A stretch of DNA of 64,000 nt from Diprion similis. Its lineage: Eukaryota > Arthropoda > Insecta > Hymenoptera > Diprionidae. Below, in pieces: positions 16,640 to 24,700 of the stretch. The position numbers and the translations under genes are program-made. Position 1 is the first letter of the stretch; each line of letters begins with the position of its first letter. The notes under the pieces were generated by a model. That model worked only from the letters and a program-made list of their open reading frames with translations, was not told the origin of the DNA and searched no databases. The stretch lies in NCBI RefSeq assembly GCF_021155765.1, contig NC_060112.1:9176001-9240000 (forward strand), written 5' to 3'.

Positions 16640-16713
16640 CTAGCAAATGCATCCTCCTTCGCCTTCGGCTTCTCCACCATTCTGCATCGGTGATTGATTC
16701 TGTAGGTCGACAG
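16640..16713 (-). CDS. Rab6: Alternative terminal exon of Rab6 with a Cys-x-Cys tail
   Basis: On the minus strand, an AG acceptor (ATGCAG|CT) opens a 74-base exon whose first two bases complete the codon left open by Rab6 exon 5 (phase 1). The frame then reads VDLQNQSPMQNGG, an acidic Glu/Gly stretch, GGCIC and stop (TAG, 16640-16642). The C-terminal CxC preceded by Gly-Gly is the geranylgeranylation motif of Rab6-type GTPases, and the main isoform ends GGCAC. Splicing exon 5 to this exon gives a 211-residue isoform. The polypyrimidine tract before the acceptor is poor, which would suit a regulated exon. The exon lies 5.0 kb beyond the main stop. A chance frame with both the right phase and a CxC end is unlikely but possible. 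Confidence 0.7.
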
Positions 16714-19700
16714 CTGCATTTTTGTTAAGGTGCATTTTGTGATTTTATATAGTAAATTTATACAGTATTTAAATATAGCCAATGGCAGTTATTTAAACTA
16801 TCATAACCAGTATAGAATCTATCTGTATTTTGATTTTGATTAATTCTCAATAATATCAGTTTGATAAAATAAGCAGAGGCAACAGTTCGCAGAGATTCAT
16901 TTCACAACAAATTCAAATAAAGTTGCAAAACAATTATGTCATGTTTAAATTACGCAACATTAACAGACATATACATTCGCACACACGACACAGCCTCACA
17001 GGTCATATAAAAAGAACCAGTTAAAGCAGGTCACAGTGTCTTTGAATGGTTCGGAGGTCTACTTCAAGATACCTCTACAGAATACATATAAAAAAAAAAC
17101 TGGTATGTCTGTGTGCATCAGGATGAGCGTGATGTGATTTAATTTTCCATCTCTGTTGGTTAAGTAAAATATGCCATACACCAACTCATGATACACAATA
17201 ATGAATGTGACAAGCAACTCACATGTCGATACACAGGAAATTCCATTCTGAATTTTTCAATGAAAATATGTATGATAAATAAACTTTGAGGATGGTAGAT
17301 TGCAAGATTACACATCACCTTGATAAAATATACTGGCATATGTAGCACTTGTGTCAATTCTTGAAGACAAAAGGTTACTAACGTCTAAGTGATATATCTA
17401 TAAGATGTTCAAACATTTCTAAGCAAGTAGCGAAACCTCAGTATAATATGTATCACTTGCGCTCTGGCAACCTTTAATTTGGACGAAATTTTATAATAGA
17501 ACCGATTTTGCTACTGAACTTATGTACACTGCTAGGAGTAATTTTTAAAATGTTATTCTCAATTACGAGATCTTAGAAAAATAAATCATGATGGCAGAAA
17601 CTTTAAATCACGTCTCATTAATTAGATCATAACAGATATGTAAAAATATAGCCAAATACACTCGTCTAAATGCCATTTTAGTACCTAAATCTTGTTATGA
17701 TAAAGTCATCCAAATTAAACGTAATCAGAACGATTTTTATCACAAATTATTATTTTGCTACCACATATAATTATGACAAGTTTATTTACTATGGTTGAAA
17801 AGCATATGAATTATACAAAAATATGGTAAAAAAATTGGACGGAGCATACCCCAATAATATATTTAAGGCGAAATTTGCAGTAGTTAATAACACCAATCCT
17901 GCAAGTCCTAATTAATGAGAAATGTAATTATTGAAATATTTGACATCAAACAGCTTCTCGTAACCTGAATGGATGGATCCCTAGAATGAGAGTAATAAAA
18001 ATTATTTGTCTACTCAGTTGGAAAAAAATCGTCTTCAGGAAAGACGGGGAAATAAATAGTGGAAATTATTAAATCAAAATAAAACCATGTAATTTAATGT
18101 TTGAGTGAGTTTTTATATAAATTAAAAGATTACAATAATAGTAATTAATAAAAATGACATTAATATCTAACGGGGTCTCTAACGACAGGGAGTTTAAAAA
18201 TTCTCTGATATTTGCACACTAAAATTCGTCAGGTTTTGATAGTAGTAAAAGGTCACTGTTTCCTGGTTTGCAAATATTAAATATACAAATTTTTGCATTT
18301 CTTTAATAGAGTGGCTTTCATTTATACTTTATACTCACTCGACAATTTCTTGAAAAATTTTATTAAGTTTGTTATATTTAATAATGTGTTGTAACATTCA
18401 GAGTCAAATTCAAATAACACTAAGGATCACATTTCAAAGTCAAAATTTCAAACAACACTCATGGCTGCTTTCGTCATAAATCACGTTTTCACTCGGAATT
18501 TATTTGAACTGTATATACCCGACTGATCACTGTAAATTTGCATATTTTTTCAATATTCTCTGGGATTTTGAGGTTTTCCAAGTCTTTCCCATCGCCAGAG
18601 ACACTGTTAAACTAACTATATTACTTCACCAAGATTGCTTGTATGTTTTTTTTCCACCTTCTACACATCGTTTATAATATTTACAATTCGGGGCTAGGCA
18701 GTTTTTTTAAATTATTTTTCTTGCCAAACATGTTTCTATCCAATCGAATTAATTTAATTTTGATACGCTAATAAACGATTTTCCAAGCAGCAAAAAAAAT
18801 ACTGTGAACAGGTATTCCATAGATTATTTTTATACCACCGTAAGAAATTGCTCGATACAGTAAGAAATGTAGTATATGTATGTATAATGATCTATATTAT
18901 CTCAAATCGAGAAAACAAAATAGAGATCTGATACAAAAATTATACTTTAGTGGTCAATCGATATTAAGTATTTTTCTCATATCTGCTAATCAATTAATAA
19001 TCTTTTTTTTTTTTTAGTCCGTTAGTCTTTTGTCATTTCGATTAGAAATTGTTTTATGTAACTGCAAAACATGTATGCATTCTAGATAAATCACAGTTTG
19101 TTCATTCGGTTTAATCGTACCAGTTGCAAAGATTCTTGAGAAATGTGAAAACATTGGGTTTGACTTTTGATACACTCAAATAAGCAGCAAATCCAATGTT
19201 CTTGAGAAAAATTTAATTCCGATAGAGTCACTTTCTCTGACTTAAGCACCGAATGGACGAACTGTACATGCATAACTGCAAGGTTTTTCCCTTATTGCTA
19301 TTTTATAATAATCTGACCAAATTCCAAAAATCTGCTTTCAATCCGATGTAAACAGAATTCTGAAAATTGGATTGAGATGGTGTCATGACTACGTTTACAC
19401 AATATGTAACTGCACTCCGATTTTTATACATAATAAATAACTCAATTAGCTGATAATTGAACCTGTCAGATACACTGGGGGATTATAAAGCGATTTTCAT
19501 AGAATAAAACTCTTCCGGTTGGTTTATAAAATTGTCCACAATAATTGGAAAAATTGTTGATTGATCTTTTCTTACATGTAAAAAAATCACATTCATACTG
19601 AATTTTTCATTGATGAGAAAAAATGTTGATTCCTGCTTCTGTTAAAAGTTGGTGTCATCATTTTTTCTTTTAATGCAATCTCAATTCTCAGTTTTTTGAT

Positions 19701-21732: not shown

Positions 21733-24700
21733 TTAGCATGCACAACCACCTTCCGACGCCTTCAGTTCGATCGGCGTGTCCTTCAGAACTACCTCTTGCA
21801 CTACAGGTTGGGAACGCATTAAGGAAAACACAAAAAATACAAAAGATAACGTAAAAAATAACAAAACAAAATGGAAAAAACCTAGAATACAGCGAGTGTC
21901 GACCTTGTAATATAAAATAGTTGAAAACATCGAAAATGTTTGTACCAAATCGAACTTACTAATACATCCCGAAAGAATTATGACGGTACTCCAAGCTTAC
22001 AGAATGAACTAGATCGTTTGCAATTATTGATTAGGCCCGTTTTGTGTTCAGAAATGACAAAGTGTAAATTTATGCTTGACACAAATGATGGATAAGGTAG
22101 AAACTGGTGGGCTAGAAAAAAATTAAATAAAGCAACTCCGACAAGCAAGCAAAAATTGGAAAGAAAAAGTAGTAAATGAAGTACTGTAAAAAAAGCACAA
22201 ATTATTTGTAATCCACAAGTGGCAATGATAGAATACCCTGTATCGGTGTATTATTATTTGTAATGAAATTGTCTGAAAAACGTGCAACTTTGTGTTTGAA
22301 TAATTTCATGTAAAGGATACTGTCTTCTGGTGGTTTGTTCTCAGTGGAGTCCATACCCGGCAAAGCTGCAGCCACTCTTCTGAACAGCTGTAAATTAACA
22401 CAAGTATCCATAAGTATTGGATTTCTTCAGAAGCATCGGAAGATTGTATCAATTTCTTCATTCGATAGCATAGAAAAGTAAATTTAATCAGTGATTGTAA
22501 GAGACATCGACTAAACAATAACACTATTTTCTGTGCAAAACGTAAAAAGATCTTCTCAGATAAATTAAACCTAGCAATGTCAATGGTAATATCAAAAATA
22601 ATCTTACAATTCGTCTGTTAAGGAAGTACATATAGTTATCAAATTTAAGAATACCATATTATATTAGTATGAAAAGCGGACAGTTTTCGATAAATGTGAA
22701 AATTGCAGCGTCAGCTGTAAAGGCGAGTGCTATAATCATACGAGTCAGGTATTGTCTATTGGCACATGTGACACACGCCATTTTTTGCAACACCTGTGCG
22801 CAAGAATTTAATTTGAGAAGCAACAATGGTGCCCAGTCAGCGTATGAAATTGGGGTGAGTTAACTGACGCTCAGTCACAGTGGTAAACTGATTTGTTGGA
22901 AGATGCGCATGCACCTAAGAAAGCCCTACTGTGTAAAATATAGTAATTTTATTGTGCGCGTGCACCAACGATGTTTCACCACAATGTTCGCAAATGGTAC
23001 ACATTACGCACGCTTTAAAGACTTCGAAAATCGAACTTTCGAGTAGGTTTGGGAATTTTTTTTTCCATTAGATAATCGAATAGTCTGATCTTTTAAAAAT
23101 ATCTTGAGCCAAGAACAATCGAGAAATTCAAAAAATTATGAAAGTTATACCACTTTTAGTACATTAAAATAAAATTACAAATAAAATCACTCTGCCATGT
23201 TTATATATTTTCAAATAAAGGTAAAACTATGGAAACGTCGACCTAGAAAAAGATATATAATACACATTTTACTGTTTCTGTGACCGTTTTTCAGGGAGTT
23301 CATGTAAATCTTGAATCACGAGTGTATGTATACCCTTAATAAGTAAAGACATGATGTCTTGAGTCGATTTCCAATAATCTGTTAAGTGACTATCACATAC
23401 AGTTTGGCATTTGATACTAAAATAAAACTGATGAAAAAGGATTTGCATTTTAATAGCAATTTAAACTCTTGTACCTGTTTCACGTTGTAGCCAGCCTTAG
23501 CACTAGTCTCAATGAACATAACGTTTAGTTCCTTTGCCTTTCGCTCACCCTCTTCTGTGGAAACTTGTCTTTTGTCACTTAAATCAGTTTTATTGCCTAC
23601 TAGCATTATGATGACGTCGCTACCTCGTTCCGTCCGAACATCGTCGATCCATTTGGATGTTTGGTGAAAGGAGTTAGCATCTATGAACAACATAAATGAA
23701 TAATTAATTCATACTCTAATCTCCAGCTCACCTCGAAATATCGGGGCTGTACTAATTTTATGTACTAAATCATATTATACTATGACATTATGTTTGATTG
23801 TTTTTTATGCAATTTTATTAAAAAATATTAATATTTTGAGAGGCATCAATAATGTACATATGATAGTAAACAGGAGTTTAACCTTTAGACCGCCGGTGAT
23901 TTTAATGTGTATTCAAATAACCCACATTTATATTATTTGACTATAGCTATAGCAATATACTGGCCAAGCGGTGGCCTGAAGGCTAAAGATTTTAGTTGAC
24001 CAAAAATTGATACTCTTTAATCATTTCACTACGAGATTGTTGTGCATTGAGAATTTATTGCATTATTATATTTGTGGACTACAAAGATCACTTTAAAACT
24101 AAAAAAATAAACATATCAATGCTTTTTATAATGCAATTTATAATGTCAATAAGATAAAATAAATTGCATTTAGTGAGTATGTACAAACTAATCTTCTGAA
24201 GAAACTCGATTACTACGAAACTACTAGATTTTTCATCATTTTGACGCGATTTAAACTGAAACATCGATATCTAAGCCTCTGTTTATAATTACAGTATATT
24301 TTATTTTTGGATTTTCATAGAGATTTTATCTTCTATCAACTTACTAGTGATGTCATACACCACCACAGCAACAGTCGAGTCTCTAATATAACTAGGAATG
24401 AGGGAACGGAATCGTTCCTGTCCCGCGGTGTCCCACAGTTGCAGTCTAACTGTTCGATCTTCAAGATACATAGTCTTGCTCAAAAAATCAATTCCTATCG
24501 TTGCCTGGAACAAACAAGAACAGTTTATGAAATAAGGTGTATGGCAATGATTACGGATGTTAATTCTTTTTCATCAACGCATTCAAATGTAACAAATATG
24601 GAATAAGATCAAGTGAAAGCGAAATTCAGTCGCTGTATTCTAAAAATGCATATGTACACAGTGTACAAAATGTAAAAAAAAAAAAAGTGGTTAATTCGGT

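Follow-up and report, generated by a model that had tools for sequence, protein, structure and literature searches.

A candidate second last exon in the Rab6 gene of Diprion similis that would encode an alternative prenylatable tail

Does the Rab6 gene of the hymenopteran Diprion similis end in one last exon, or can its transcript finish in either of two, each encoding a complete membrane-targeting tail of its own? The question arises from a stretch of 64,000 nucleotides (NCBI RefSeq assembly GCF_021155765.1, contig NC_060112.1, positions 9,176,001 to 9,240,000 of the forward strand; hereafter the window, numbered from its first letter), whose minus strand holds a complete Rab6 gene with five shared exons, all with GT/AG borders, followed by a proximal last exon (6a) and a second, distal candidate (6b). 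The original prediction had joined exon 5 to either of the two, and its coordinates, phases and tails for exons 5, 6a and 6b all prove right, with exact phase and a stop codon in both joins. On sequence grounds we consider it highly probable that 6b is a genuine alternative last exon of Rab6, whose use is probably minor or regulated, such that the gene, like KRAS and CDC42, would yield two forms of its product, both of them prenylatable. The seven exons are as follows:

27993-28062, minus strand: Rab6 coding exon 1, with the ATG at 28062 and the donor GAGCG/gtgagc; tblastn match of 100% over residues 1-23
26174-26232, minus strand: Rab6 exon 2, with the acceptor tttttgcag and the donor ATCAG/gtgcgt
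24345-24504, minus strand: Rab6 exon 3, with the donor CACTA/gtaagt
23475-23680, minus strand: Rab6 exon 4, with the donor AACAG/gtacaa
22321-22387, minus strand: Rab6 exon 5, the last shared exon, which ends one base into a codon at the donor AGACA/gtatcc (GAC A/gtatcc)
21733-21800, minus strand: exon 6a, the proximal last exon, with the acceptor gttcccaacctgtag
16640-16713, minus strand: exon 6b, the distal last exon, encoding the tail TVDLQNQSPMQNGGEAEGEGGCIC, with the acceptor ccttaacaaaaatgcag, which is rich in A and has pyrimidines at 7 of the 16 positions from -20 to -5

Joined to 6a, exons 1-5 encode a Rab6 of 209 amino acids (630 nucleotides including the stop) that ends in EGGCAC, and joined to 6b they encode one of 211 amino acids (636 nucleotides including the stop) with the C-terminal part ...EDTVDLQNQSPMQNGGEAEGEGGCIC, ending in EGGCIC. 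Exon 6a follows ...cctgtag and opens with TG, making the junction codon A+TG (Met), while 6b follows ...aaatgcag and opens with CT, making it A+CT (Thr). Exon 6b thus combines an intact AG and a fitting phase with 23 open codons and a perfect Gly-Gly-Cys-x-Cys (GGCxC) end directly before the stop, and the locus as a whole has the arrangement of KRAS and CDC42, namely a pair of in-phase last exons that both supply a complete lipid-attachment end. Both predicted products carry the Ras/Rab domain (Pfam Ras, E ~1e-60 for each) and have Rab6 as their closest match; the 11 PDB sequences ranked highest against the 6b form are all Rab6, Ypt6 or Rab6 GTPase chains. In the alignment as printed, a single difference separates the protein from Drosophila Rab6 (2y8e) over 176 aligned residues, and human Rab6A (4dkx) aligns with it as far as the tail end.

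The rarity of the GGCxC end was assessed with a DNA pattern for GGCxC-stop (stop TAA or TAG), GGNGGNTGYNNNTGYTAR, run over both strands of the 269-Mb genome with simple repeats skipped. A reversed control pattern gave 36 matches and the pattern itself 25, including both 6a and 6b, which lie 5.1 kb apart on the same strand. All 23 other matches were examined: x is itself a stop in two (L041, L048), and a phase-compatible AG opens a tail of 20-40 codons in seven (L032, L036, L042, L045, L046, L049, L050), so tails of this kind arise by chance too. From that count, ~7e-5 phase-fitting tails of 20-40 codons would be expected by chance in an interval of 5.1 kb on the strand of the gene (7/538 Mb x 5.1 kb). 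No GGCxC tail of 8-60 codons appeared in either of two order-2 Markov simulations, each 3 Mb long. Within the window, the minus strand holds seven phase-compatible CxC tails of 8-60 codons, all nested versions of 6a or 6b, and the plus strand holds five, none of them with GGCxC. A looser measure, accepting any Rab-type cysteine end (CC or CxC), was not significant and was rejected because such ends are common by chance: the plus strand of the window has five, and 205,328 bases of control sequence, with each strand counted separately, have 23. Part of that control sequence consists of genuine Rab loci, of loci that overlap, or of loci chosen for the pattern.

Base composition and copy number also set 6b apart. 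Its G+C content is 0.51, within the range of the other six exons of the gene (0.39-0.53), and every 74-base window of 16401-21700 clear of 6b falls below this value. The 401 bases around 6b match the genome once, at their own position, and a repeat or transposon was rejected as the source of the exon on that ground. When the Rab6-6b protein was searched against the genome, the tail (residues 188-211) was covered, among 47 matches, only by the one at 6b. Between 6b and 6a, a tblastn search at E values up to 10 revealed no additional Rab-like exon, and no Rfam family reached its gathering score in 15500-22500. The earlier proposal that 6b is an exon is therefore well supported by its phase, the position of its stop, the rarity of GGCxC, the G+C peak and its single copy.

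The two tails differ in composition and agree in the features that bear on prenylation. The 6a tail has a net charge of -2, two lysines and eight hydrophobic residues (AVILMFWY), while that of 6b has a net charge of -4, five hydrophobic residues, ten Gln/Asn/Gly and neither lysine nor arginine. Both end in a Rab-type double-cysteine CxC motif directly before the stop codon (GGCAC in 6a, GGCIC in 6b), and in both an aliphatic-x-aliphatic motif, as defined in PMC3504004, can be picked out by eye (VVL in 6a, VDL in 6b). The human Rab6A tail can be aligned over its whole length with that of 6b (EDTVDLQ...GGCIC), placing VDL opposite the human IDI. Prenylation of Rab proteins requires REP, which binds the aliphatic-x-aliphatic motif of the tail and presents the cysteines at the terminus (PMC3504004, PMC9141697), and CXC is among the Rab ends listed in PMC9141697. 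Because both keep a candidate REP-binding motif and a CxC end, both products should be geranylgeranylated.

Several observations weigh against a genuine and functional 6b. The likeness between the 6a and 6b tails is not significant, since scores as high came from 70% of 5000 shuffles of the protein and from 130 of 2000 of the DNA, leaving a tandem exon duplication as the origin of 6b unsupported. Without GGCxC, both tails show only a weak likeness to the human tail, with shuffles scoring as good in 5% of cases for 6b and 15% for 6a, and the aliphatic-x-aliphatic motif is so short and so easily met by chance that it proves little. The 6b acceptor (atcacaaaatgcaccttaacaaaaatgcag) has the fewest pyrimidines of the nine acceptors compared; the eight others, five from Rab6 and three from the neighbouring RDD-domain gene with borders placed by eye, have 9-13 each, and 78% of 257 AG sites in the region equal or beat the tract of 6b. 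The exon 5 donor AGACA/gtatcc strays from the standard consensus and looks weak as well. Weak sites are common in regulated exons, yet also in unused ones, and the acceptor of 6b, weak as it is, would be compatible with minor use or none. A relic or a pseudo-exon that was never used is a reading we consider unlikely: the polypyrimidine tract of 6b is poor, and ccttaac, a possible branch site picked out by eye, lies very near the AG, both of which would suit such a sequence, but the intact AG, phase, open codons and perfect GGCxC-stop, together with the coding-like spike in G+C, argue against it. If 6b is unused, the locus is an ordinary Rab6. Much further down the scale lies an intergenic stretch that merely happens to end in GGCIC-stop; nearly all pattern matches lie elsewhere in the genome (23 of the 25), the reversed control returns still more, about a third of those 23 open a phase-fitting tail and loose ends abound, but the expectation for an interval of this size and the empty simulations make a chance origin very unlikely. 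Equally improbable is that 6b belongs, as last exon, to a small gene of its own, such as another Rab nested downstream. The 5 kb upstream of 6b on the same strand do lack a recognised gene; however, tblastn detected no Rab-like exon there (a low-G+C exon without Rab similarity could escape), the highest G+C of any 74-base window between 6b and 6a is 0.46, and the phase of 6b suits exon 5 of Rab6.

Poly(A)-like hexamers follow both last exons, which in DNA this rich in A+T has little meaning; all of the following are motif matches only:

21667-21709, minus strand: four ATTAAA within this interval, much nearer 6a than the first AATAAA
20741-20746, minus strand: first AATAAA beyond 6a, a possible poly(A) signal for the 6a form
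16177-16182 and 16147-16152, minus strand: two ATTAAA, candidate poly(A) signals of the 6b form
15989-15994, minus strand: next AATAAA after the ATTAAA pair of 6b

If 6b is a genuine last exon, exon 5 would be spliced either to the proximal 6a or, in transcripts that skip 6a, to the distal 6b at a distance of 5.6 kb, and 6a, with its ordinary acceptor and nearby poly(A)-like hexamers, would probably be the default. The choice would set the last 22 or 24 residues together with a different 3' untranslated region (3' UTR) and leave the GTPase domain identical; its most likely effect would be a shift in membrane or effector preference, in mRNA localisation, or in abundance between cell types. Different targeting of the two forms is plausible. 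More tentatively, and with the odds rather against it, this insect Rab6 gene may be a switch of the KRAS/CDC42 type, in which mutually exclusive last exons are chosen by cell type and two fully prenylatable proteins that share one GTPase would serve different Golgi-derived carriers. The cell type that makes this choice would perhaps be the neuron; distal last exons are reportedly tied to neural projections, going by the title of a cited study, yet the brain form of Cdc42 is the other one.

The purpose of the switch could be served by either route, protein or mRNA, and within the reading of 6b as a real exon it is a considerable possibility, though short of probable, that the main effect falls on the mRNA, with the distal 3' UTR governing localisation, stability or translation and the two proteins behaving alike. 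Alternative last exons replace the entire 3' UTR, and for Cdc42 the two 3' UTRs have been proposed to direct localisation to soma versus neurite (PMC6411841); moreover, two tails that share CxC and an aliphatic-x-aliphatic motif may anchor alike. The 6b tail is nevertheless unlike that of 6a in charge and composition, and exchange of the hypervariable domain between Rab22 and Rab31 shifted the proteins between endosome and Golgi, though a swap of 15 residues was insufficient (PMC9403361).

Exon 5 offers a further reading frame. Should the intron that follows it be retained, the frame at 22202-22426 (minus strand) would continue for 39 codons (ENKPPED, then onward to ...VDYK) to an end without cysteines, which would make an unprenylatable Rab6; exon 5 is also the exon whose donor looks weak. 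Farther afield, a scan of genome contigs for relatives returned a single Rab and no insect Rab6: a Heimdallarchaeota contig (L002:10001-10531) encodes a Rab-like GTPase with 34% identity to Diprion similis Rab6. One scan of viral contigs returned no insect Rab6 either. The window contains three other stretches with domain matches:

29334-30320, minus strand: gene just upstream of Rab6 on the same strand, with an RDD-family domain (match within 29337-29867), which we take to be FAM8A1-like; its open frame stops ~1.3 kb before the Rab6 start codon
35194-36396, minus strand: long open stretch, presumably big brain-like, that includes the end of a Major intrinsic protein (aquaporin) domain as well as a lengthy tail of low complexity
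62900-63301, plus strand: open stretch in which a carboxylesterase-family domain starts, with no PDB match at 1e-3, which we assume to be neuroligin-like

Isoforms of Rab6 are familiar from other animals. Human RAB6A and RAB6A' are two isoforms of one Rab6 gene that arise by alternative exons, and they differ in the GTPase domain, not in the tail. In Drosophila, whose Rab6 is the same GTPase, the only alternative C-terminus that our literature search found reported is an extension by stop-codon readthrough; ribosome profiling suggested it, and it was measured by means of a reporter, which the authors later treated as a premature-stop reporter (PMC7244557). Text searches of the open literature for insect Rab6 isoforms, judged mostly from their listings, gave no report of an exon like 6b, and a search with fragments of both tails returned no papers. 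The predicted isoform may already stand in database annotation.

Among Rab proteins, the C-termini of RAB28 reportedly differ through alternative splicing, as the title of a 1996 study by Brauers has it. Like Rab6 as read here, RAB28 is thus a Rab gene with alternative C-termini, but unlike it RAB28 is not counted as KRAS-like in a preprint on 167 members of the RAS superfamily, apparently human (PMC9882654). That survey finds nine further genes with C-terminal splicing, including Rab8A, Rab28, Rab35 and Rab15, finds KRAS-like distinct membrane-targeting tails in CDC42 only, and does not have Rab6 in its list of C-terminal splicing. If 6b is used, Rab6 would be, as far as the survey goes, the first Rab with two complete membrane-targeting tails. 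How Rab proteins find their membranes is called controversial (PMC9403361), and with the role of the variable tail in dispute, two naturally occurring Rab6 proteins, identical but for that tail, would provide a clean test in vivo. The closest parallels lie in other families of small GTPases. KRAS4A and KRAS4B arise from mutually exclusive last exons, both of which specify a full hypervariable tail for membrane targeting (PMC9882654), and Rab6 as read here resembles KRAS in being the gene of a small GTPase that has a choice of last exon, with a complete tail encoded in either one. The two differ in that KRAS is a Ras protein with CaaX tails, whereas Rab6 has CxC ends and depends on REP for geranylgeranylation, and in that the second exon of Rab6 is a predicted one. 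In CDC42, exons 6 and 7 are alternative last exons with different membrane tails and 3' UTRs (PMC6411841); CDC42 belongs to the Rho family and its tails differ in lipid type (prenyl versus prenyl plus palmitoyl), whereas both Rab6 tails are CxC. A second last exon in Rab6 would extend the tail switch by alternative last exons, known from KRAS and CDC42, to the Rab family.

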